A stretch of DNA of 37,087 nt from a virus. A program made the translations under genes and the position numbers. The stretch covers positions 1 through 37,087 of the IMG/VR virus record IMGVR_UViG_3300025873_000001; one strand, 5' to 3'. Under the pieces are notes generated by a model that ran no database searches, was not told where the DNA came from, and saw nothing but the letters and a program-made list of their open reading frames with translations. Shown here piece by piece: positions 325-37,087 of the stretch. The stretch's first letter is position 1. Every line of letters begins with the position of its first letter.

Positions 325-3300
325 TTATTTCTCCTGATTCGCTTCTCGTTTGGCCTTCTGCAAAGCCTGATTAGCTTGGTTATAGTACGTTTCAAATGCT
401 TTATTGCGAGCAAGCCATAGCTTATCCATCTGCTCGCGCTTTTCTTTACCAGACAAATTTTTGTCATATTTAATTTTTAGCTCGGCGGTTTTTATTCCCT
501 CTTTACCATACATTAGTTTAATTAACTGATTCATAGAATCATTGAGGCCAAAAAGAACCTCTTTCTCTTTTCCAGATAGGCCATAAAAATTATCATCTTT
601 AAACTTACCAGTACCGCCTTGACCTTTAATTTGTCGGCGAACATCTACGGTTTGCTTGAAGGTTGACACTATTTTATCAGACTGTTCTTTTAGGTTGAAA
701 AACTTCTCCATATTAGCAGTGGTCGGGCGAACATCAGGAGTTAAGAAGCGGCGCAAGAATACATTTTCTGACAACTTACGATCTGGCTTTTCTCCAAACT
801 TCGACTCATCCCAAAGAAGGTGATCGGTTCCAGCCATTAGGTAGCCACCAAGATAACCAGTGTAAGCCTTAAACATATGCTCAGCCTTAATAGGGCTTAC
901 GCCTAAAGCCTCACCCATACGAACAAAGGTTTCACTTGTATTTGAGGTGTACTGTTCAGGCGCTTCAACATCAGAAAGAGATTGCGGAACAACTGGCGCA
1001 CCTGTCCACTTCTCATTGCGAACAAGATCCCACCATCCCGTCATCATAGCCGGAGTTCCATCAATTCCGTACATTTGAGTTAAGGTCCATAGCATACCGT
1101 CAGCGAACTCTTTCCCTTTGTCGTCCTCTACATACTTTGCAAATAGTTCAGGCATCGTTGCATACACAAAACCAACATCATAAGGGCGAGGAATTTTAAC
1201 GAACTGACCGTCACCGATTTTAATATGCCAGTTAGTTCTTTTTTCGTAATCCGGTATTGCTTTGTAATCTTCGTCATCTTTATTCACCAAATAAAGGATC
1301 AGAGTCGGCACCGTGATACCAAGAAACGCCTTCATAGCCATAGCTGCAGGGTTTCCGTCATAACGCTTGCTTACTGCCGCTTCTCTAAATACACGATCCT
1401 GTGATTGAACCATCGCGTTTAGGAACGGAACTGTGCGAATGTAGCCAGTCAGGAACCTGTTAGCACCAAGAACACTAAAGTCAGTTGAGATCTCTCTCGC
1501 ATCAAAACCAGCGTCCATATCAGACTTCATATTTTTCTTGGCAAGTCTGTATTCACCAATACGAGTACCGTACTCAAAAGCACTCGCTAAGTTATCAATA
1601 CTGCTTAGTAATCTTTCCGGGCCGGTCATAACGCCGAACTCATCAAGCTTAACTCTTCGTCTTGCCTGGCTATCACGAGTTGCACCCTCAAGGCGGCTTG
1701 AGTGACCACCACCGGAGCGAATGAAGTCCTGGTAATACTTGTCTTTAGCTAAAAACGAATACATTCCCTGGAACGAACTGATAAAAGGCTTGAAGTTGTT
1801 CTTGCTAAGGAATGTCGCGCCAACCGTATCACGCACCAGGTTAGCCCCGGTGAACTCAATTCCTAGCGTAATGGTACGGGTAAAGAAGTTTTTAACCCCG
1901 AACATCACATTCATAAATGAACTGTAGCTTTCAGGGTTCATTGACATAAGCATTTCTTGAAGTAGCGGATCTTGCACTTCGTAATATTTAGGCTTGCCAT
2001 TGATGATCACTGAATCAACGATATTACCCGACTCATTAACGCGAGGCGCAACACCGTGTTGCCAGAAGGTAAGCAGTTCTTTACTAGCTAAATCAAGATC
2101 ACCCTCTATCTCAATCCCGTTAGCCTCAAGTACCTTACTTATCTTGGCTTGCATTTCATCGGCGTAAACCTGAACAGGCTTAGAGTCCGGCGCTATTCTT
2201 GTCGCAAAAATTGCCCCGTCCTTATGCCCTGAAATGTATTGATAAAGTCGCTGCTTAGCTCGGTTGTTTAATGCTGATCGGACGTTTGCCGTTATGCCGT
2301 CTTGAATATTTACCAAAATATCATTCAGGTTAGCGGTACCACCTTTCAGCTTTTGGAAGCCGGCACTAGCCGCACCTTTACCACCAGCAAGCTGATCACG
2401 GATACGGTTGAAAGGTACATAGTCCTTGTTCATTGACTGCATTGTTTTACGGCCTTCAGGCGTAACCATTCCAGCCTCTTCGTAAAAGTCCATCATGCGA
2501 TCATTAAACTGTTGATATTCTTTCTGGATAGATTCAAACACCGGGTAGTCTTTACCAAGGCGAGCCCATTCCTTAGCTGTTTCTTTAGGGATTAGATTTT
2601 CACGCTTCTGGCGGTGAAGTTCTAACGCTCGGCGGCCAGCAAAGTAACGCATTAGCAAGTCAATCTTCTGATCTCCTTCATGCTCAGGCTTCAGCTTGAT
2701 TGTTTTAACTGGCTCCATTACTTCATGTAAGCTTTTACCGCTACGCTTCAGATCGCCTTTATCGTCAAACTGAACGGTTCCATAGTTGAGAATGTAATCA
2801 GAAATACCTTCCGCACCACCATTAGCAATTCTAAATTGCTTCCAGGCTGACTCTTCAACGGTGCCAATTTTACGGGTTAGCTCTTGCTCAACCTTTCTAG
2901 CTGCGTGGAAGCGGTCAATAACTTGCTGACGAATACGCGAATCACGGCGATAAGCCCACTCGTTAAAGCGCTGTTTAAATGAAACGTCCTGACCAATTAA
3001 CGCTTGGCCTAACTTATCAGGACCCTGGAAGTAGAACTTGTGCATTAGGTCCTGCATATCACGCATAGGATTAAGCAGTTTACGATCACGCGCTAACTCA
3101 TTGGTAAACGCATCGTAGAACTTAGGCGCTCTCAATTGCGCTTCATTGGCATTCGTTAACCATAGACGCACAAACTCAGCGAACCCTTCAATTTTTTCAA
3201 TCTTCGGATCAGCATCGGTATAGCTAAGCGCTGCCACTTCACTAGAATATTTCGGATCTTTATAAAGCTTCTGGAAGTTAGGCAAAGTGATATTTGAATA

Positions 3301-6300
3301 CACATCAAGGTAGTGGGCCATTTCATGCGCCAATACTTCAACGTCATTCTTGCGGCGCGTTCTGATCTCACCAACGTTAGGACGATAGAAACCTTCAGCA
3401 GACTTACCTTTGATTTTTCCAAAGTAAATGCGGCGGCCAGTTATCTTAATCAGCTTACTCATGATCGGCTCAATTCGTTGAGGCGCATCAGGTATCTTTA
3501 ACTTGCGACCTTCAATGGTTACAAAGTCACGGCGCTCAGGTATCCCGGTTGAACGGAACATGCCAATGAAGTTATGACCAGGCGCATGAAACACACGTTC
3601 ACCATCTTTCGGTGTAGGTGAAACTTTGCTGTCATCCTTTTTGTAGTTAAGCGTGTTAGTGTCGTTTTTCTCAATCGTCACCATTACAGTGTTAACTCCA
3701 GTAGAACGCTCTGAACCTTTAAAGCTTCCCTCTGGTAAGTCTTCAATGTAACTGCCGGCATCATCAAGCCATTCACGGAACTCAACCGCCTTCTTACGAG
3801 AGTTCTTCACACCAGCCCCCATGATAGCCACAAGTTTTCCACCAGGCTTTAACAGGTCATAAGCATGTTTTACATGGTCAATATCCTGGAAGTTTTCAAA
3901 AGGTGGGTTCATCACAATGCGGTCATACTGCTTGCCGGAGTATTCAAGGAAGTCATTGCCAACAACGTTATAGCCTTTTACCTCAAGCAATGAAGCAAGT
4001 GACGTATTGTATTCAACAACATCAAGCGAGGCATCCGGCGCGGAAATCATGATCTGATCTGCAATGTTACCTTTACCAGCGGAAGGCTCTAAAACCTCAT
4101 GCCCTGGTTTAATGTCTGCATAGTCAATCATCTGATCAACTAATGGCGTAGGAGTAGGAAAGAAGCCTTCAATCTTCTTTCCAACTAAATCACGCTCAAG
4201 CTTTTTAACTGGGTCCTCTTGTCGCTTAGCAACTCGAAGAGAATCAAGCTCACGAATAGCGGCGCGTAACTGCTCACCAGTAGATATACCCAACTTGCCT
4301 AATCGGTTTAATGTTGCGACCTGATCCGGTAGCCAGCTAAGAGAATAAGCTTCAAGCAATCCGGCTTTATTGGCTGCCATGATCTTGTCACCTTGCTCTT
4401 TCGTAAGCTTACGAAGTGAATCACGCTTACCTTTTGGCAACTTGCGAAGCTCAGCAGATAGGCGAGCATAACCGCGCTTACCTTTTAAGGTATCGGCTAC
4501 ACGTTCAATGATTCCGCTATCAAGCTCGATACCAGGAAAATCAACAAGGTTAATGTAGTCGTCAACCGTTACACCCTCTTTTAGTGGTCGGCTAATTGAG
4601 TAACCATCAAACGAACCTTGCTCATACAGTTCATTAGGTATTGCACGTTTCTGAATGGTGATCAGCTCTTCAAGCTGTGTAACCTGGCTCATTTTTCCAA
4701 GGTGTTTAAGCTCACCTTCCTGAAGCTTGACGGCGATATTGCGAACTGTCTTAGCTAAAGCGAGTTGCTTCTCAGCTCTCTCAGTGGCGTTAGCAGCCAT
4801 TGAGGCGCGTCTTGCTGTGTTAGCTTGTCTTGGTCGGTTAATCTCTTCTGTGGCCTTGGCTTCCATTTTTTCAGCCATATTTAGAAGCTTGTCAGCATTC
4901 TTTGACTGCTTCACTTCAGCTTTAGCTTCTGCAAAGTCGCTTTTATCCACATCTTTGCCAGATAGTAACTGTTCAAACTGATCAGCCGCCTCAACCGTTT
5001 TGAATTGAAAGCCTGGTATCGCATCACCTTTTGAGTAAGAAGAGTAATAGCCGCCTAACTGCTTAGCCTTTCCGCTTAACTCTCTGAACTGCTCTTTAGG
5101 TACACGACCAACCATTTTAACCACAAATAGATCAGCACCCGTTTTGGTGTGCTTGGTTTGGGCTCGCTCAGTGGTTACGGCTTCAGTTTCAGCCTTGACA
5201 ACTTCAGGCTTAACTTCTGCCATTGATTCAGCAACAAGCTCGTCATAAGCGGCCAGTTGTTCAGGGCTCATTTTGTCTTTACCGCGAACACGGATGAACT
5301 CTTTAAACTCTGGCAAGGTTTCAGGGTTAGATAGTGATTTAACAAACTCATCTTTACGCTGCTTCATTTGAGCGCGGTATTCACGTTGCTTCTCGTAAGC
5401 TGCATCTACATCGGCTTGAGTCTGCTTGTTAATCTTCTCCATCATTTGTTGTTCGTAGGTTTTAGAACCGCCAAATATGGTAAACGTAGCATCACCCATA
5501 ACGTGAGCCGCAAGCATTGACTCATACGCACTCTTAACCATTTGAGGCTTTTTAAGGTCGGAGCGCGGCGAGTGAGTTATCTCTTGAAGCATTGCCTTGG
5601 TGAACTTGCGATCACTCATCTTGGCAATGATAGCGTCTTTGTTTTTAACCAGACTTTCAGCATCGGCTTTAATTTCGGCAACAGTAGCGGTTTGATTGGC
5701 TACCGATTCCATGAAAGAACGATAAGCTTTTGCTGGCTCAGTGGCGTAGTCTGCTTTAGGCGTTGGCACTTTATCAGCATCAGTTAAGCCTTTACCTTTC
5801 TTCTTGCTAACAGCTTCGACAACTTCAGACATTGGTTTGGTTGGCTTTTTAACTGGCTCCGGCTTATCAGCTTTAACGATAGAACCAAAGTCATGCCATA
5901 CGCCTTTAATCTTTGCTTGCTGCTTGGATTGAGAAATGCCCTCAATTTCACCACCATCAAAGAATGTGCCTTTGCTATCACTCTTTATTGCCTTGGCATA
6001 ATCGCCGCGAGTGAATGACTGTTCAGCCGGACCGCCTTCACTATCTTTAGCGTTCCAGTTGGTAAAGGTGTCTTTCTCTTTAGGTGAAGGTTGCGCCGCT
6101 GGCTCTGGTTTTGGCGCTTTAGCTTCTTCCGTGATCGCTGGCTTCTCATCAGTTACCGCCTTTTCAGGTTGAGATTTAAGCTCTTGGGTTAACTTAGGGT
6201 TAGTGTGCCAGTTTTGCCAATCACGTTTTTGCTCTTTCAGTTCAGCAATACGGGCCTTGATTGCTTCAGGGTTTTTAACGTCAACGCCTTCTTTAGCGGC

Positions 6301-8445
6301 TAACTCTGGTTGCTTAGCTGCGCCCTGTACCGCCGACAAAGTTTTTTGAATTTCGCTTTGCTTTTTAACTGCTGCTTTCGCCAGGTTTTCAGCTTCAACC
6401 ATAGCAGAGTCATCAAACCCAAACAGATCACCGCTTTGCTGTGCGGTTTCGTCTGTCATAGTCTTAACGGCTTTCACCATGTTTTCAGCAACGGCAATAG
6501 TTTTACCTTCTTGAATGGCCTTAATGCCAACAGCTTGAAGCTTTTCATTGCGTGGTGCCGCCTCTGCTATTCGAGTTGCGGCCTCATCGGTTAGCTGATC
6601 GTTTCGGTGGCTGGTAATGAGCGCATCACTTCCTTCAGTTGCGATTGTGAAAGCCCGTTTGCCCGTCTGCCTTGCCAATATTCCTTGTGACTCTGCTTCT
6701 TGTTTTCTTGGCTTTGTTGCTTTGATGAAATCGACATAATCTTTTACCTTACCTTGACCTTCACGGATGTTAAGCATCGCATCAAGCACAGCCGCCTGAT
6801 CTGCTCCGAAACCTTCAGACTCATAATGATATTGAGCCGGGATTGTTTTTTCTCCACTGCGTTCAGCTAAGTCTAAACGATGGCGACCGCTGATCACCTC
6901 TTTGCGGCCATCTTCACGGACCCAAATTTGAATAGGAGCAACGCCAGTTCTTTCAAACTTACCGCCCAGTGGTTCAACAACGCCTTTAACGTTAGCCCCC
7001 TCTTTAAATTGAGGAACGTCTTCACTAATGGTTATTTCTTCAATCGGTGCTTCAACAACTTCCTTGCCAACGATTTGCTGCTTAACTGGCTTTTCTTCAG
7101 GAAGCTCAAGCGCAACAGGTTCTTGCTCAGTAGTTTGAGCCTTATCAATTTCAAACTCTTGCTTTTCAACTGGTTTTACTTGCTCAGGTTTAGCCTGTGG
7201 TTCTTTTTCTTTAAGCTCTTGTTTTTGTTGTGGTTTTTGCTCTTGTTGAATTTGGGCTTGCTCAGGTGATAGAGCTTTAATGGCTGCCTGCTCAGCATCA
7301 GGAAGTGAAACATCAAACTCGCTTTCGATTTGGGTTTCGATAAGTTTTTCTTGATCTCGCTTATTCATGCGATCTGCTACTGGCCCAGTTGCCAGTGACA
7401 TAGTAGTACCAGCACCAGCGCCAATGATAGCGCCTTCAACCATTCGATCTAATGCTTCGGCCAGTGTCATGTCTGGCTTAATGTAACCTTTATCTATACC
7501 AGCTTGTAGCGCTTGAGTGACAGCCTCCTGACCTCCTTCAGTAACACCAGCTTTTGCTAGGTCTGTTAAAACCTTTCCGGTAGGCTTGAGCAAAGTCATA
7601 ACCGGAATGGCTGAAGGGATAGCTTCAGCGGCGGCAATAAGTGTTGAATATTTATCAGCTTCTTGAGGAGTTAAACCCTCAAGACGGCCAGACTCATAAG
7701 CACCACCCTTTGCTTGAGCGAGCATTAAGCCAAGACCAATATCAGGACGGCGACCAACTAAAGAAACTCCCAAAGTTGGAAGCATATTAATAACAGATCC
7801 GGTAATCGCTTCTGAGTAGTAACCAGGCGAACCCTTTTCAAACTCACTCGGCTTCATTTCCGCCCTGGTTTCTTGGCTGATCTTTTTACCCTTATCAGCC
7901 AGCCAGGTTGAAAGCGGTTTGTTCGCTCTGGCGAAATTGACATAGTTATCATAGTCACCCTTAAACATTCGCATACCAAAGGAATCTTTCTCTTGCTCAA
8001 ACTGCTCTGGCGTCATTACCTCACCTTGCTGAAGCATACCAGCAACTTGAAGCTTTGCTTGTGGAAGTGCGCCTTCAAATCCTGAAACAATACCGCCTCC
8101 TATTTCAGAAAGCTTAGAGCTCACAAGCTCTAACATGCTTTGCTCTTCAGGAACCTTCATTGCGGTGCCAGTGAATCCGTCAATATCTTTCTGCTTTGGT
8201 TGTGGCTGTAGATTTGAGGTGATAAATCCAGAACCACCAACAGGTTGCGTTAATGGTTCTTGCTCTTGAATTGGGTTGGTTGCCACTGGTTCAATCGGTG
8301 TGGCCTGGAAACCTATCTTTTGATTAAACTGCTCGATTGGTATATCTGAATAGTATTTATTGTGAAGCGCAGTGACCAACTGATCATCTGGCATATCGTC
8401 ATAGGCTGGATTTTCTGCTCTAAACTTTGCAATGAACTCGCTCAC
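325..8445 (-). CDS. Giant 2,706-aa polyvalent protein with ParB-like, N6-methyltransferase and zincin domains; gp16-position ejection candidate
   Basis: It starts at GTG 8445 behind CAGGAGAG. Seen in order: a short N-terminal motif (about 1-46, YDDMPDDQL) typical of large phage internal proteins; a Gly/Ala-rich hydrophobic region (about 200-360); a Q/K/E-rich linker (about 390-455); a ParB-like segment with GRHR at 520-523; an associated domain near 1097-1158; an Ala/Lys/Glu helical stretch (about 1165-1240); an N6-adenine methyltransferase fold (about 1425-1592) with EPSAGKGN at 1453-1460 and NPPF at 1513-1516; a zincin with HEMAH at 1707-1711 and candidate third ligand E1757 in GFAEF; and a long C-terminal region (about 1790-2706) resembling large-polyvalent-protein C-terminal domains, with one hydrophobic segment near 2367. 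It sits where P22 has gp16 (609 aa), just before the tailspike, so I infer that it is packaged and ejected with DNA. Function in the host is not shown by sequence; DNA protection and host-protein cleavage are possible. Gene reality is certain, role moderate. Confidence 0.85.
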   Translation of the reverse strand: MSEFIAKFRAENPAYDDMPDDQLVTALHNKYYSDIPIEQFNQKIGFQATPIEPVATNPIQEQEPLTQPVGGSGFITSNLQPQPKQKDIDGFTGTAMKVPEEQSMLELVSSKLSEIGGGIVSGFEGALPQAKLQVAGMLQQGEVMTPEQFEQEKDSFGMRMFKGDYDNYVNFARANKPLSTWLADKGKKISQETRAEMKPSEFEKGSPGYYSEAITGSVINMLPTLGVSLVGRRPDIGLGLMLAQAKGGAYESGRLEGLTPQEADKYSTLIAAAEAIPSAIPVMTLLKPTGKVLTDLAKAGVTEGGQEAVTQALQAGIDKGYIKPDMTLAEALDRMVEGAIIGAGAGTTMSLATGPVADRMNKRDQEKLIETQIESEFDVSLPDAEQAAIKALSPEQAQIQQEQKPQQKQELKEKEPQAKPEQVKPVEKQEFEIDKAQTTEQEPVALELPEEKPVKQQIVGKEVVEAPIEEITISEDVPQFKEGANVKGVVEPLGGKFERTGVAPIQIWVREDGRKEVISGRHRLDLAERSGEKTIPAQYHYESEGFGADQAAVLDAMLNIREGQGKVKDYVDFIKATKPRKQEAESQGILARQTGKRAFTIATEGSDALITSHRNDQLTDEAATRIAEAAPRNEKLQAVGIKAIQEGKTIAVAENMVKAVKTMTDETAQQSGDLFGFDDSAMVEAENLAKAAVKKQSEIQKTLSAVQGAAKQPELAAKEGVDVKNPEAIKARIAELKEQKRDWQNWHTNPKLTQELKSQPEKAVTDEKPAITEEAKAPKPEPAAQPSPKEKDTFTNWNAKDSEGGPAEQSFTRGDYAKAIKSDSKGTFFDGGEIEGISQSKQQAKIKGVWHDFGSIVKADKPEPVKKPTKPMSEVVEAVSKKKGKGLTDADKVPTPKADYATEPAKAYRSFMESVANQTATVAEIKADAESLVKNKDAIIAKMSDRKFTKAMLQEITHSPRSDLKKPQMVKSAYESMLAAHVMGDATFTIFGGSKTYEQQMMEKINKQTQADVDAAYEKQREYRAQMKQRKDEFVKSLSNPETLPEFKEFIRVRGKDKMSPEQLAAYDELVAESMAEVKPEVVKAETEAVTTERAQTKHTKTGADLFVVKMVGRVPKEQFRELSGKAKQLGGYYSSYSKGDAIPGFQFKTVEAADQFEQLLSGKDVDKSDFAEAKAEVKQSKNADKLLNMAEKMEAKATEEINRPRQANTARRASMAANATERAEKQLALAKTVRNIAVKLQEGELKHLGKMSQVTQLEELITIQKRAIPNELYEQGSFDGYSISRPLKEGVTVDDYINLVDFPGIELDSGIIERVADTLKGKRGYARLSAELRKLPKGKRDSLRKLTKEQGDKIMAANKAGLLEAYSLSWLPDQVATLNRLGKLGISTGEQLRAAIRELDSLRVAKRQEDPVKKLERDLVGKKIEGFFPTPTPLVDQMIDYADIKPGHEVLEPSAGKGNIADQIMISAPDASLDVVEYNTSLASLLEVKGYNVVGNDFLEYSGKQYDRIVMNPPFENFQDIDHVKHAYDLLKPGGKLVAIMGAGVKNSRKKAVEFREWLDDAGSYIEDLPEGSFKGSERSTGVNTVMVTIEKNDTNTLNYKKDDSKVSPTPKDGERVFHAPGHNFIGMFRSTGIPERRDFVTIEGRKLKIPDAPQRIEPIMSKLIKITGRRIYFGKIKGKSAEGFYRPNVGEIRTRRKNDVEVLAHEMAHYLDVYSNITLPNFQKLYKDPKYSSEVAALSYTDADPKIEKIEGFAEFVRLWLTNANEAQLRAPKFYDAFTNELARDRKLLNPMRDMQDLMHKFYFQGPDKLGQALIGQDVSFKQRFNEWAYRRDSRIRQQVIDRFHAARKVEQELTRKIGTVEESAWKQFRIANGGAEGISDYILNYGTVQFDDKGDLKRSGKSLHEVMEPVKTIKLKPEHEGDQKIDLLMRYFAGRRALELHRQKRENLIPKETAKEWARLGKDYPVFESIQKEYQQFNDRMMDFYEEAGMVTPEGRKTMQSMNKDYVPFNRIRDQLAGGKGAASAGFQKLKGGTANLNDILVNIQDGITANVRSALNNRAKQRLYQYISGHKDGAIFATRIAPDSKPVQVYADEMQAKISKVLEANGIEIEGDLDLASKELLTFWQHGVAPRVNESGNIVDSVIINGKPKYYEVQDPLLQEMLMSMNPESYSSFMNVMFGVKNFFTRTITLGIEFTGANLVRDTVGATFLSKNNFKPFISSFQGMYSFLAKDKYYQDFIRSGGGHSSRLEGATRDSQARRRVKLDEFGVMTGPERLLSSIDNLASAFEYGTRIGEYRLAKKNMKSDMDAGFDAREISTDFSVLGANRFLTGYIRTVPFLNAMVQSQDRVFREAAVSKRYDGNPAAMAMKAFLGITVPTLILYLVNKDDEDYKAIPDYEKRTNWHIKIGDGQFVKIPRPYDVGFVYATMPELFAKYVEDDKGKEFADGMLWTLTQMYGIDGTPAMMTGWWDLVRNEKWTGAPVVPQSLSDVEAPEQYTSNTSETFVRMGEALGVSPIKAEHMFKAYTGYLGGYLMAGTDHLLWDESKFGEKPDRKLSENVFLRRFLTPDVRPTTANMEKFFNLKEQSDKIVSTFKQTVDVRRQIKGQGGTGKFKDDNFYGLSGKEKEVLFGLNDSMNQLIKLMYGKEGIKTAELKIKYDKNLSGKEKREQMDKLWLARNKAFETYYNQANQALQKAKREANQEK

Positions 8446-8488: not shown

Positions 8489-9370
8489 TCATCTTAGGCC
8501 CAACGGGTCGTTATTATCAACTGTACTACCAGCATCAGGAACTTCAAGCCCAAACATTTGAGCTGCTTGTTTAACTGCTTGTGAACGGGTAACACCACCT
8601 TCACGGAAAATCTTAGTTGCTTCGGTAGCAATACCCTGGACCTTATTTCTAACAGTGGGATCAAGGTTAGTAATATTGCCAGCCTGATCAAATAGACCAC
8701 CAAGCAATTCAACTGACTGGCGATACATTAAGCTTTCATCAGCCGACTTAACGCCACCACCATCTGAACCAGTGCCGGAAGTTTTAACTGGGCGAGTTTT
8801 GCGCTCAACTTCACGACCAGCCTTATACACAACATCTTCGCCACCGACCTGAATAGCTTTAGGGTTTTCAAGAAGCTTATCCATTGCCATTGCTTTAGAT
8901 AGTGAAAGCTCCATGAATTGAGGATCGTATTGCTCTGGTAGCTTTGATTGTACTTCAGGAGATACACCTTGGTACATTAGCTGATAACGGCGAGCTTGTT
9001 CTTCAGGTGTCTTACCTTGAAGCACATACCCAGCAAGTTGGCCCATTTCATCAACTGATCTCTGAGTAGCTTCAAGCTTGCGATCATCCATCTTGGTTAC
9101 AGCATCAATAAATGAAGCGCCACCTTCAGGATCCAATGCTAACAATTGCTGTTGAGCCCCAACGTCACCACCAACCGCTTTTTGACGCAATCCAGTAAGC
9201 ATATTTTTGCGCTCTAATGCTGCCGCTTCTTTTGCTGGTCGCTCTGCAATTTCTCTCTCAGTCTCATCAAGCTGAAGTTGAGATAATCGGTTTTGAGTGC
9301 GAGCACCTTTAACCGCTTCAGTGGTTCTGTAAAGCGAACCAAGATCTATACCATATTGATTAGCTGCCAT
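8489..9370 (-). CDS. Probable ejection (DNA transfer) protein in the gp20 position, 293 aa
   Basis: No family is recognised with confidence. The protein is hydrophilic and helical, rich in Ala, Gln and Glu, without signal peptide or membrane segment. It begins MAANQYGIDLGSLYRTTEAVKG and has a Ser/Gly/Thr-rich hinge near residues 196-210. It lies between the gp7-like protein and the giant protein, the place taken in P22 by gp20 (471 aa), and is clearly shorter than gp20. A GGGG run 7 nt before ATG 9370 supports the start; only four bases separate it from the upstream stop. I infer that it is one of the pilot proteins ejected with the genome to build a trans-envelope channel. The assignment rests mainly on synteny and composition. 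Confidence 0.7.
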   Translation of the reverse strand: MAANQYGIDLGSLYRTTEAVKGARTQNRLSQLQLDETEREIAERPAKEAAALERKNMLTGLRQKAVGGDVGAQQQLLALDPEGGASFIDAVTKMDDRKLEATQRSVDEMGQLAGYVLQGKTPEEQARRYQLMYQGVSPEVQSKLPEQYDPQFMELSLSKAMAMDKLLENPKAIQVGGEDVVYKAGREVERKTRPVKTSGTGSDGGGVKSADESLMYRQSVELLGGLFDQAGNITNLDPTVRNKVQGIATEATKIFREGGVTRSQAVKQAAQMFGLEVPDAGSTVDNNDPLGLR

Positions 9371-9374
9371 GTTG

Positions 9375-10094
9375 TTACCCCAGTGCCTTATAAGTTAGCC
9401 AGTTTTGCGCCGCTTGGTTGCCTGCTTGAGCCATTCCTTGATAAGCACCAGCGCGAGCCTGACCTTGTGCGTATTGAGACTGAGCCTGAGCGTTACCAAG
9501 ATTGGAAAGGATGTTTCCGCTTGTGTTTGCAAGGTTGCTTGTAGCCTGAGCTTGCCCTGCTGCTGAAGCTTGACCGCCAGAAGATAACCCAGAAAGCATA
9601 TTGTATTGCTTAGATCTTCGGTCTGCCTCTTTTGCGTACTGATCTGAATATCGAGCATAAGCATTTGAATACTCTTGACTACCCATCCCTTGACCGTAAT
9701 CAACCAACGCTTTAGATTGAGCCCCACTTTGTAATCGTCCTCTTGCTGCCGCCGATTTATCAAGAGCTTCAACACCCTGATCCATTCTGAATTGATAACC
9801 AGGATCGCTTTCTAAATCAATTTGTGACGGGTCAAATTTTTCCGGCAAAAACTCACCAGACTGAACACCTTCCCACATCTGATTTAGCGCCTGCTCACCA
9901 ATGTCACGCCAGGGAGCAAAGTCTTCACGCTGCTGGTTTGCAAGTTCGCGCTGAAGGGCTACGTTTTCATCTGCAATAGCCTCTTGTGATGCCGCCGCGC
10001 TTTTAGCTGCTTTTTCTTGTGACTTACCAGACTGATAAGCAGATACACCACCAACTACCGCGCTACCAACTACCGCCGCCGCTACTACTGACAT
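9375..10094 (-). CDS. gp7-like DNA transfer (ejection) protein, 239 aa
   Basis: The length is close to P22 gp7 (229 aa) and the position is the same. The N-terminus is a small-residue hydrophobic segment (residues 2-20, Ala/Val/Gly with glycine spacing) that could insert into membrane. A helical Ala/Glu/Gln part follows, then FAPWRDIGEQAL near residue 60, a motif common in this phage protein group, and DPGYQFRMDQG near 98. The last 70 residues are Ala/Gln/Gly/Ser repeats, probably flexible. The start at 10094 overlaps the end of the cupin gene by 10 nt and has a strong AAGGGGGAG site. Inferred role: a minor virion protein ejected into the cell envelope, working with the 293-aa and 2,706-aa neighbours. 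Confidence 0.8.
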   Translation of the reverse strand: MSVVAAAVVGSAVVGGVSAYQSGKSQEKAAKSAAASQEAIADENVALQRELANQQREDFAPWRDIGEQALNQMWEGVQSGEFLPEKFDPSQIDLESDPGYQFRMDQGVEALDKSAAARGRLQSGAQSKALVDYGQGMGSQEYSNAYARYSDQYAKEADRRSKQYNMLSGLSSGGQASAAGQAQATSNLANTSGNILSNLGNAQAQSQYAQGQARAGAYQGMAQAGNQAAQNWLTYKALG

Positions 10095-34760: not shown

Positions 34761-34932
34761 TCCTCACGTAACTTGGAATCTTACCGCTGTATTGGCAGTT
34801 TTGAAAAATCCAAACCCCACAAGGCTCAACCTTGTAGCTGTCATACGTCACCCCACTTTCAGACATAACCTGAAACGGGTGGCGTTCATCTAAGTTAGCC
34901 AGCTTTTCTTTGTTGATTATTTTTAAGTCCAT
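34750..34932 (-). CDS. Hypothetical 60-aa protein coupled to the tailspike
   Basis: The family is unknown. The ATG at 34932 shares a base with the tailspike TAA (TAATG), with GGTG upstream, so it is translated with the tailspike. The protein is soluble, begins MDLKIINKEKLANLDERHPF and has two Cys and several aromatic residues at the end (CGVWIFQNCQYSGK). It overlaps NinG, on the other strand, by 11 nt. A small tail-associated or tailspike-folding helper is possible; nothing in the sequence proves this. Confidence 0.65.
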   Translation of the reverse strand: MDLKIINKEKLANLDERHPFQVMSESGVTYDSYKVEPCGVWIFQNCQYSGKIPSYVRIID

Positions 34933-37087
34933 TACACACCCGCCTGTTCAAGAGTTAATTGATAAAGCTTACCGTCAGATCGCTTCTGGAACTTAGCGCG
35001 ATCGCCGGGATTGGTTAAGTTGATTGTAGTTGCCGCATTAATAGCAGGGTCACGAACAATATCTGTACCAGCGGTATGATCTTCTGAGCGTAAACCTATC
35101 TGAGCTGGCGTGGTAGCGTCAGTAGCGTTTACAAATTCAATGATTGTACCGTCTGGGATCTGAGAAGTGTCAAACGCAGGAGTACCAGCAATAAATCTAT
35201 TGCTTCCGTCATTGTTTGTATCACAAAGCATAGTGATACTGTGGATCTGCTTGTTATCACGGTCTACAGCTTCATAGTTGGTTGATCCAGAAGTGTAGGC
35301 GATTCTTTGCGGTTTAATGTCAACACCACCAGTAGCGTGAGCGTATAAACGCCCTGATATTTTAGTGTTAATTAGGGTGACTTCTTTTAAGAAAACATCA
35401 CCGATATTGGCGGCTATATCGCTACCAAACCAATCACAATCCTCAATTGTCACCCGTCCAACATTTGCAGGGGTAGCAATATTTAAAATTTTACCGTCAT
35501 TGATAACCCCAGATCCAATATCAGAATTTCTAATATTAAGTCTTTGACAAGATCGAACGTCTATAAATATAACGTCAGGATCGTTATGAATGCCACACAA
35601 CAAACCATCAATATCCAGTATGCCGCTTGCCCCATTGTCAACAAGAACGCCGATACCGACTCCACTTGTTGAGTCTGCATTTTCAAAACCAAAGTTCTTC
35701 AATGAGAAACCACGATAAGAAGCGCCTGTGAATCGTGCGGCAATCTCACAACCATCAGCACCACAACCAACCATCTCCGTATAAGTCCAGCCTGTAGCTT
35801 GGAAGTCGTGACCAATTCGGCAAATGTATGACAGGTTAGAGCTAAACAATGATGATGTACCACCACTCGTAACGTCACCATCATACCGATGCCCAACATC
35901 ACAACGAATCGCTACGTTTTTAGAGATTTCCAAGTTCCAAGAGTTACGATATCGAAAGCCTAGGAGCATGTTTTCTGCCACGTTATCAGTCATTCGGAAG
36001 TTAAACGCTGACTGAGTAAATAAGCCGTAGTTAGTATTTACAGAGCTAAAGCCAATACCCAACTGATCGCCAGAAGGACCAAGAACCTTAATACCTTTAA
36101 CGTGCATCCCACGGTTGCGCTGAGAGGTGTTATTTGTTCCTTCACCAATCTCAATAACTGGCGCTCCGGTGGTGTCATCGTCTTCAGTAAGAAGACCGTC
36201 AGTCAAAATTGTCGCCGAAGTTCTAAAATTATCAAAAGTTTGCGGCTGAGCTGGACCGCTTAAAGTGCATCCAGGCAAAACCGTTATCTTCTCAAGATTA
36301 CACTCTGTAACCGATGACGGGATAACAACGTCACCAGCTCGTTCACCGCTAACATATTGCATTGCTTTGTTAACAAATTTTGCAGAATCAATATCGCTAG
36401 AGTCTTTATCAAGCGGAAATCCAAATCCATTGGCACTAACTTGAAAATCAATAGATGAAAACTCGTCTTGCTGACCTCGCTTATTTCTAACTGACTTTGT
36501 TGTAAACTCAAACACGGTACCAACATCTGAAACTGTAACGTCATACCCGTAGTATTCATTTTCTGTAACTTCAGTGATAATTCTTGCTGAAGATGAAAAA
36601 TCACCGGAAGGCTCCCACAAAAACAGGTCATTACCTTCCCATTGAATACAGGTTATTCCCGATGGTATTTGATCGCCTATCTCATAATCACTGCCATCTT
36701 TAGGCCACTTGGTAGCTGCGATAGCTCGTTCTTCAGCTTCAGTTACGATTCGTGGTGTATTTGTTGCGTTACTTGTGATTATTGACAAACACACATTTAT
36801 CAAGCCAGTTGTAACAACAGCATCAGCAACAGTAACGGTAGTCTCAGAGCCAGCGTAAACAGCATTAACTATTTCTGAATACTCATACTCGGAAGTGTTG
36901 TCATCAAGTCTCACCATGCGGCCAGGTTCATACTGATCAACAAAGTTACCAGCTACTTTAAATGAAGTGGTTGATACGTAACTTGCTGGCTTGCAGTCTG
37001 TCCAAGTCTCCGCTTGCGCTGAAGTTACTGGGTCAGAGGTCCATATTTCATTGTCCTTACAGTCCTTCAGGACCATCTTATAAGAGC
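34932..37087 (-). CDS. Tailspike protein, main part (gene continues to 323 across the ends; 783 aa in all)
   Basis: This holds residues about 66-783; the first part is at 1-323. After the attachment domain (to about residue 85) come beta-rich connector residues, then a long central region with the repetitive Asn/Gly/Ile pattern of a right-handed beta-helix (for example RYRNSWNLEISKNVAIRCDV, SLKNFGFENADST, LNIRNSDIGSGVIND, VTIEDCDWFGSD). The C-terminal about 130 residues (ISGRLYAHATGG onward, ending in a short beta part with GKLYQLTLEQAGV) are a trimer-forming or receptor-proximal domain. Such spikes bind and often cleave surface polysaccharide; the catalytic residues cannot be named here. It is the last large gene of the late operon. 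Compared with P22 gp9 (667 aa) it is longer. Confidence 0.9.
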   Translation of the reverse strand, partial: SYKMVLKDCKDNEIWTSDPVTSAQAETWTDCKPASYVSTTSFKVAGNFVDQYEPGRMVRLDDNTSEYEYSEIVNAVYAGSETTVTVADAVVTTGLINVCLSIITSNATNTPRIVTEAEERAIAATKWPKDGSDYEIGDQIPSGITCIQWEGNDLFLWEPSGDFSSSARIITEVTENEYYGYDVTVSDVGTVFEFTTKSVRNKRGQQDEFSSIDFQVSANGFGFPLDKDSSDIDSAKFVNKAMQYVSGERAGDVVIPSSVTECNLEKITVLPGCTLSGPAQPQTFDNFRTSATILTDGLLTEDDDTTGAPVIEIGEGTNNTSQRNRGMHVKGIKVLGPSGDQLGIGFSSVNTNYGLFTQSAFNFRMTDNVAENMLLGFRYRNSWNLEISKNVAIRCDVGHRYDGDVTSGGTSSLFSSNLSYICRIGHDFQATGWTYTEMVGCGADGCEIAARFTGASYRGFSLKNFGFENADSTSGVGIGVLVDNGASGILDIDGLLCGIHNDPDVIFIDVRSCQRLNIRNSDIGSGVINDGKILNIATPANVGRVTIEDCDWFGSDIAANIGDVFLKEVTLINTKISGRLYAHATGGVDIKPQRIAYTSGSTNYEAVDRDNKQIHSITMLCDTNNDGSNRFIAGTPAFDTSQIPDGTIIEFVNATDATTPAQIGLRSEDHTAGTDIVRDPAINAATTINLTNPGDRAKFQKRSDGKLYQLTLEQAGV
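36961..37087. repeat. 127-bp end overlap, copy 2
   Basis: Identical to bases 1-127. When one copy is removed and the ends are joined, the tailspike reading frame is continuous from the ATG at 323 through the join to the stop at 34932. Confidence 0.95.

Follow-up and report, generated by a model that had tools for sequence, protein, structure and literature searches.

The giant gene and its genomic setting

The window, by which we mean the whole 37,087-nucleotide stretch analysed (IMG/VR virus record IMGVR_UViG_3300025873_000001, positions 1 to 37,087), derives from a short-tailed marine phage. Its ends are identical, forming a 127-bp terminal direct repeat (positions 1-127 and 36961-37087), and the contig therefore represents a complete circular unit of 36,960 bp. 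An open reading frame with a GTG start runs on the minus strand from 8445 to 325 and has no internal stops across 2,706 amino acid residues. The first-pass annotation gave this length and all of the motif positions exactly but omitted the strand; its statement that the gene fills more than a fifth of the genome is borne out by a value of 22.0% of the circular unit. The gene and its neighbors are:

325-8445, minus strand: whole gene (2,706 aa), a polyvalent protein occupying the place of an ejection protein (P22 gp16)
8489-9370, minus strand: gp20-position protein, 293 aa (phrog_36852)
9375-10094, minus strand: gp7-like DNA ejection protein (phrog_598)
34932-37076, minus strand: tailspike, the directly downstream gene across the circular junction (from its position and the annotation of phage X14)

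The genes of P22 are ordered 7, 20, 16, 9. The same succession is found here (gp7-like ejection protein, gp20-position protein, giant gene, tailspike), so the placement at the gp16 position holds, as does the attribution to a P22-type particle, since the Pfam families for the P22 coat and portal are both matched in the genome. No ejection-protein family was found among the Pfam and PHROG matches to the giant chain, these being the two collections compared. In P22, gp7, gp16 and gp20 are ejected and build a periplasmic conduit (PMC8402733); P22 gp16 occupies the same slot, whereas the protein described here is far larger and enzymatic. The early region carries a separate Dam-type adenine methyltransferase (MTase; PF05869, 32674-33210), giving the phage two adenine MTases; this second enzyme is also kept in relatives, including Shewanella phage X14.

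The giant belongs to the phage polyvalent proteins, which were described as a class in 2017, and is not itself unknown. A tblastn search recovered full-length counterparts in Vibrio phages 1.183.O and 1.211.A, in X14 and in others at 84-96% identity; several are annotated as N-6 adenine methylase, and a 96%-identical relative is already in GenBank. The proteins of 1.183.O, 1.211.A and X14 ("DNA methylase subunit"), which belong to the Bocovirus group, match the giant at 87-96% identity across 100% of its length and are in essence one protein with it; X14 is classed in the genus Bocovirus. The consulted part of the X14 paper (PMC9011153) assigns the gene to transcriptional regulation and reports that phage 1.184.A is without it; an ejection role is not discussed in that part. 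As in the polyvalent proteins of Iyer et al. 2017, unrelated enzymatic domains (ParB, MTase and zincin) share one chain, and the gene sits among late virion genes. Zincin, an adenine MTase, a ParB domain and LPD38 are all listed as polyvalent-protein domains in the sections of that survey consulted, which describe the zincin as the commonest of them and LPD38 as phage-only (PMC5512222). The earlier proposal that such a protein is uncharacterised is not supported, given this 2017 account of MTase, zincin, ParB and LPD proteins (at least in those sections), the methylase-annotated relatives and a virion protein of phage H66 discussed below.

The replacement seen in 1.184.A (L153, MG592550, 13275-17303) bears on the nature of the slot. 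This phage keeps the gp7-like protein (77% identical), but its gp20-position protein is chimeric, with the first 214 residues kept (82% identical) and the remainder replaced. The whole giant gene has given way to an unrelated 819-residue protein, similar to one annotated as a "DNA transfer protein" (E 5e-44), while the last 61 codons of the giant gene survive downstream as a relic at 97% identity. This replacement shows, at the level of sequence, that the slot is one for ejection proteins and that a phage can do without the giant protein, and it suggests that the C-terminus of the gp20-position protein and the gp16-position protein were swapped as an interacting pair.

Domain anatomy

The following parts of the protein were recognised:

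8266-8445, minus strand: N-terminal motif, aa 1-60, "FRAENPAYDDMPDDQLVTALHNKYYSDIPIEQFNQKIGF", common to most intact close relatives
7366-7818, minus strand: Gly/Ala-rich hydrophobic stretch, aa about 210-360 (from the sequence)
6496-7062, minus strand: ParB/Noc-like domain, aa 462-650, with a GRHR box at 520-523 (alignment, model and structure match)
4234-5766, minus strand: pre-MTase module, aa 894-1404, which accompanies the MTase in the virion proteins of H66 and SSIP-1
3646-4233, minus strand: adenine-N6-type MTase domain, aa 1405-1600, with TP motif, EPSAGKGN and NPPF (Pfam, PHROG)
2838-3612, minus strand: zincin metallopeptidase domain, aa 1612-1869, with HEMAH at 1707-1711 and E1757 (alignment, model)
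328-2838, minus strand: C-terminal carrier region, aa 1870-2706, directly after the zincin (comparison of relatives)
757-1275, minus strand: LPD38 domain, aa 2391-2563 (PF18857, E 1.3e-46)

The N-terminal motif is present also in those forms of close relatives that have no MTase, and possibly represents a packaging or ejection signal; the Gly/Ala-rich stretch may be a membrane-active part.

The ParB-like signature noted earlier at the GRHR box is substantiated by the fold. Alignment of the region with 26 relatives gave a model of pLDDT 90, which among solved structures comes nearest to ParB and Noc (E 1e-6), and 14 of the 27 members of the alignment match Pfam ParB_N, with a best E-value of 4e-4. 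A ParB of the P1 DdrB kind was considered and rejected, profile comparison returning an hhalign probability of 0.2%; ParB/Noc is closer. Three 1.14-kaa proteins (L096, L104 and L105) join the giant's type of ParB to an N4-type zincin, a layout which resembles that of DdrB but is built from a different ParB.

The MTase domain carries EPSAGKGN at 1453-1460, NPPF at 1513-1516 and a TP motif of the form FFPTPTPL, the combination of TP motif and NPP(Y/F) being that of TaqI/EcoKI-like enzymes. The Pfam MTS methyltransferase family is matched at 1449-1544, slightly over its gathering cut-off, phrog_15406 ("DNA methyltransferase") spans 888-2703, and many more PHROG MTase families match the MTase stretch, all of which supports the adenine methyltransferase read from these motifs. 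Polyvalent MTases are nearly always joined to an SF2/SNF2 helicase, and the translocase has been suggested to be necessary, according to the consulted portion of PMC5512222; the MTase of the giant, unlike those described there, is without an SF2 helicase. The zincin begins about 15 residues after it, leaving no C-terminal SF2/SWI2-SNF2 fusion of the DarB type, and no helicase family is matched anywhere in the protein in Pfam and PHROG at E up to 1. The MTases of the giant and of DarB are distantly related (hhalign 85%, E 6e-6). LPD36 was looked for N-terminal to the MTase; no LPD family of Pfam matches the module at 894-1404, which shows no relation to DarB (hhalign 1.8%). Membership in the DarB family was rejected on the absent helicase and the distance between the MTases.

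HEMAH is the sole HExxH motif in the chain, and GFAEF lies at 1754-1758 with E1757 as its glutamate, exactly as first read. In an alignment with 27 relatives both HExxH and the glutamate are invariant. The model (pLDDT 80) indicates a zincin fold of the MPTase-PolyVal type, with a three-stranded sheet (model residues 62-64, 74-77 and 82-85), the HEMAH helix (91-104), a later helix bearing E1757 (136-153) and flanking helices, so that structure prediction sustains the metallopeptidase assignment. Closest to it in the PDB come a zincin of the lethal-factor type (E 0.008, probability 1.00) and the plasmid protein ArdC, the overlap being modest, with TM-scores of about 0.3 and E-values short of strict thresholds. 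This modest structural overlap nevertheless agrees with the invariance of the triad and with the zincin assignment of the N4 virion RNA polymerase (vRNAP) in the consulted part of PMC5512222; the N4 vRNAP zincin motif region is related to that of the giant. PF18818 is matched weakly in 5 of 28 relatives.

The LPD38 match scores 159.5 against a Pfam cut-off of 27. The PDB matches of the C-terminal alignment are coiled-coil proteins with weak E-values and were judged to be due to chance. In a 98%-identical phage contig (L003:3603-3605), codon 1798, which falls after the zincin core and before the C-terminal region, reads TAG in place of CAG, as either a sequencing error or a natural amber codon. 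A scan of bacterial genome contigs for prophage copies, made from the zincin alignment with two peptide patterns only and hence a weak negative, found no relative.

When close relatives are compared, the ParB, MTase, zincin and C-terminal regions have dN/dS values of about 0.00-0.10 (about 0.01-0.10 for the MTase), against about 0.20-0.57 for the linker at 361-450, the ratios for distant pairs being rough because synonymous sites are near saturation. Since the domains are conserved across many relatives at dN/dS far below that of the linker, GRHR, EPSAGKGN/NPPF and HEMAH are not chance occurrences.

A constant core and optional cargo

Relatives were sought initially with the zincin as seed, which is biased; repeating the search from the C-terminal region alone gave the same result. 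With the C-terminal query, 56 of the 57 non-redundant relatives carry HExxH 154-245 residues upstream of the C-terminal region, nearly all of them at 154-168 residues; 55 of these 56 also possess the E-G-x-A-E motif, so that HExxH and the glutamate occur together in 55 of the 57. The MTase family of the giant occurs in 16 of them (one dead) and its ParB in 9, and about 20 relatives, 1.5-2.0 kaa long, have the zincin but neither of these two domains, although the HMMs detect only the giant's own MTase and ParB lineages and other payloads are under-counted. Two relatives (L022 and L024) have no ParB and no MTase, homology restarting at about residue 1595.

The cargo differs among other relatives. 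Other sequence fills the ParB slot in phage BA3 (L016) and in L008 and L009. In L016 and L018 the slot (aa about 550-690) holds a module, "LYRE...LGQGKN.GV.IEFDG", which recalls ADP-ribosyltransferases and matched no family; a Pfam scan of the ParB-replacing modules of L016, L018, L022 and L024 likewise gave no match. One protein, present in both L007 and L019, has a second zincin (L007:13000-13180), of the N4-vRNAP type (HELIH), between its ParB and MTase parts. In phage VvAW1 the same zincin and LPD38 follow an Eco57I-type MTase and an SNF2 helicase, and L062 has a VvAW1-like arrangement plus an inorganic pyrophosphatase. Judged from sequence comparison, zincin and LPD38 are a near-constant core in dozens of phages, and MTase and ParB are optional cargo. 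The first-pass annotation had treated MTase and protease as one combined weapon; this view did not survive the comparison, which separates the protease of a constant carrier from an optional MTase. The consulted sections of PMC5512222 do not describe such a layout, in which a fixed zincin-LPD38 core bears exchangeable cargo.

One might argue that the enzymatic folds are relics with a structural or DNA-binding role only, their catalysis unused. The MTase of L018 (12707-13255) lends itself to this reading, having lost every catalytic motif (it has NIYTGKGS in place of EPSAGKGN, ATFH in place of NPPF, and no TP motif) while keeping the fold pattern, and 1.184.A lives without the gene altogether. 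Yet every other examined relative bearing this MTase retains motifs I and IV, the zincin of L018 itself is intact beside the dead MTase, and both the near-universal HExxH and glutamate and the low dN/dS of the domains relative to the linkers run against it; we regard it as very improbable.

Two virion proteins share the payload module without the core. H66_0060 of the F116-like Pseudomonas phage H66, likewise a giant late protein of a podovirus, shares the pre-MTase module and the MTase (53% identity) and also has HExxH motifs, two in number, but differs in its C-terminus and in having LPD23 and LPD3; its record describes a virion protein "verified by mass spectrometry". SSIP-1 gp43 (L152), from the tailless Salisaeta icosahedral phage 1, is recorded as a "structural protein" and contains the pre-MTase module, the MTase and the giant's type of ParB, and with it the payload module crosses virion types. 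Neither the H66 nor the SSIP-1 protein has a helicase match in Pfam, and neither has the zincin-LPD38 core. P1 DarB and the DarB-like giants (VvAW1 gp1; Bcep22/JC1) are also head-carried adenine MTase proteins, of which JC1 gp69 has been detected in virions (PMC9144972) and VvAW1 gp1 has the core of zincin and LPD38 at 37% identity; the DarB type differs in its SNF2/SF2 helicase and Eco57I-like MTase, to which the MTase of the giant is distantly related. In coliphage N4, gp50 (vRNAP) is an ejected polymerase of 3,500 residues with a membrane N-terminal domain, the enzyme, an HExxH domain and a large helical C-terminus (PMC12633501). The order of parts is that of the giant, and gp50 is the last gene of an ejection trio; its payload is an RNA polymerase. 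No homology was detected between the two C-termini (hhalign probability 0.1), the likeness there being architectural only.

A proposed carrier and its payload

We consider it reasonably probable that the giant is a packaged P22-type ejection protein of a Bocovirus-like phage, composed of carrier and payload, which injects an anti-restriction MTase and whose zincin processes the carrier. Packaging is likely, because two proteins that share the MTase module are recorded in virions and because the slot in 1.184.A is occupied by a relative of a "DNA transfer protein"; it counts against this that the two virion proteins have the payload module in common with the giant and not the core. The carrier would comprise the N-terminal ejection or membrane part together with the C-terminal zincin and helical LPD38 block, placed in the gp16 slot and presumably in contact with the gp20-position protein. 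The payload would be the ParB-like nucleotide-binding domain and the helicase-less adenine-N6 MTase with its companion module of 500 residues. Several copies may be packaged and leave the virion with or before the DNA, arrive partly unfolded at the inner membrane or in the cytoplasm, and then refold, upon which the MTase would methylate the incoming phage DNA with host SAM and so protect it from restriction.

An MTase active in the newly infected cell must enter the cytoplasm, because SAM is cytoplasmic. Such entry is not a given, since the ejection proteins of P22 are known chiefly for their conduit through the periplasm; the protein may nonetheless enter the cytoplasm and act there before any phage gene is expressed. 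That the MTase has no SNF2 translocase counts against an injected active enzyme, in the light of what the consulted part of PMC5512222 says of such fusions. To methylate incoming DNA against restriction would be the most economical role for it, and the occurrence of two MTase lineages on the same core speaks in favor of this. The MTase could instead act in the virion-producing cell, where late expression would let it methylate progeny DNA before packaging, its presence in the virion following only from fusion to an ejection protein. The gene does lie in a late operon, and the separate Dam-type MTase of this phage and its relatives, X14 included, makes progeny methylation a familiar strategy. 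That same Dam, however, already fills the role and needs no fusion to an ejection protein, while fusions of this kind are seen with two MTase lineages on one core and again in the virion proteins of unrelated particles, and we find this explanation unlikely.

The zincin cannot serve solely to release a payload, because it persists where no payload is recognised. Most likely it would act on the carrier itself, either while virions assemble or once inside the cell, freeing any payload that is present. The main rival is a host-directed effector which cuts a defence or envelope protein, rather than a phage protein, immediately after entry, a possibility listed by Iyer et al. in the consulted part of PMC5512222. 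It would fit the retention of the triad in nearly all relatives, including the payload-less forms of 1.5-2.0 kaa, and its nearest solved folds belong to zincins that serve as effectors or in anti-restriction (lethal-factor type and ArdC). Effector domains, however, would be expected to swap as the MTase and ParB do; the zincin does not, and across many phages it keeps its fixed distance from the C-terminal region. We therefore hold a host target to be doubtful, and on these sequence patterns self-processing of the carrier is the preferred reading.

A broader idea, which we put forward tentatively and with the balance leaning against it, is that zincin and LPD38 constitute a general protein-injection carrier whose protease is part of the delivery machinery and frees interchangeable N-terminal enzymes after entry. 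The N-terminal enzymes seen with the core include ParB, two unrelated MTase types, extra zincins and inorganic pyrophosphatase. If this is true, the zincin-LPD38 carrier would be a natural modular enzyme-delivery device.

What is new here is the anatomy, that is, the separation of a constant carrier from an optional payload, and a natural pairing of isolates that carry the gene with one that lacks it. A loosely framed prediction about giant injected phage proteins thereby becomes a testable layout of delivery vehicle and payload, and the isolates that possess the payload (1.183.O, 1.211.A and X14), together with the one that is without the gene (1.184.A), permit direct tests of anti-restriction and of the role of the zincin.
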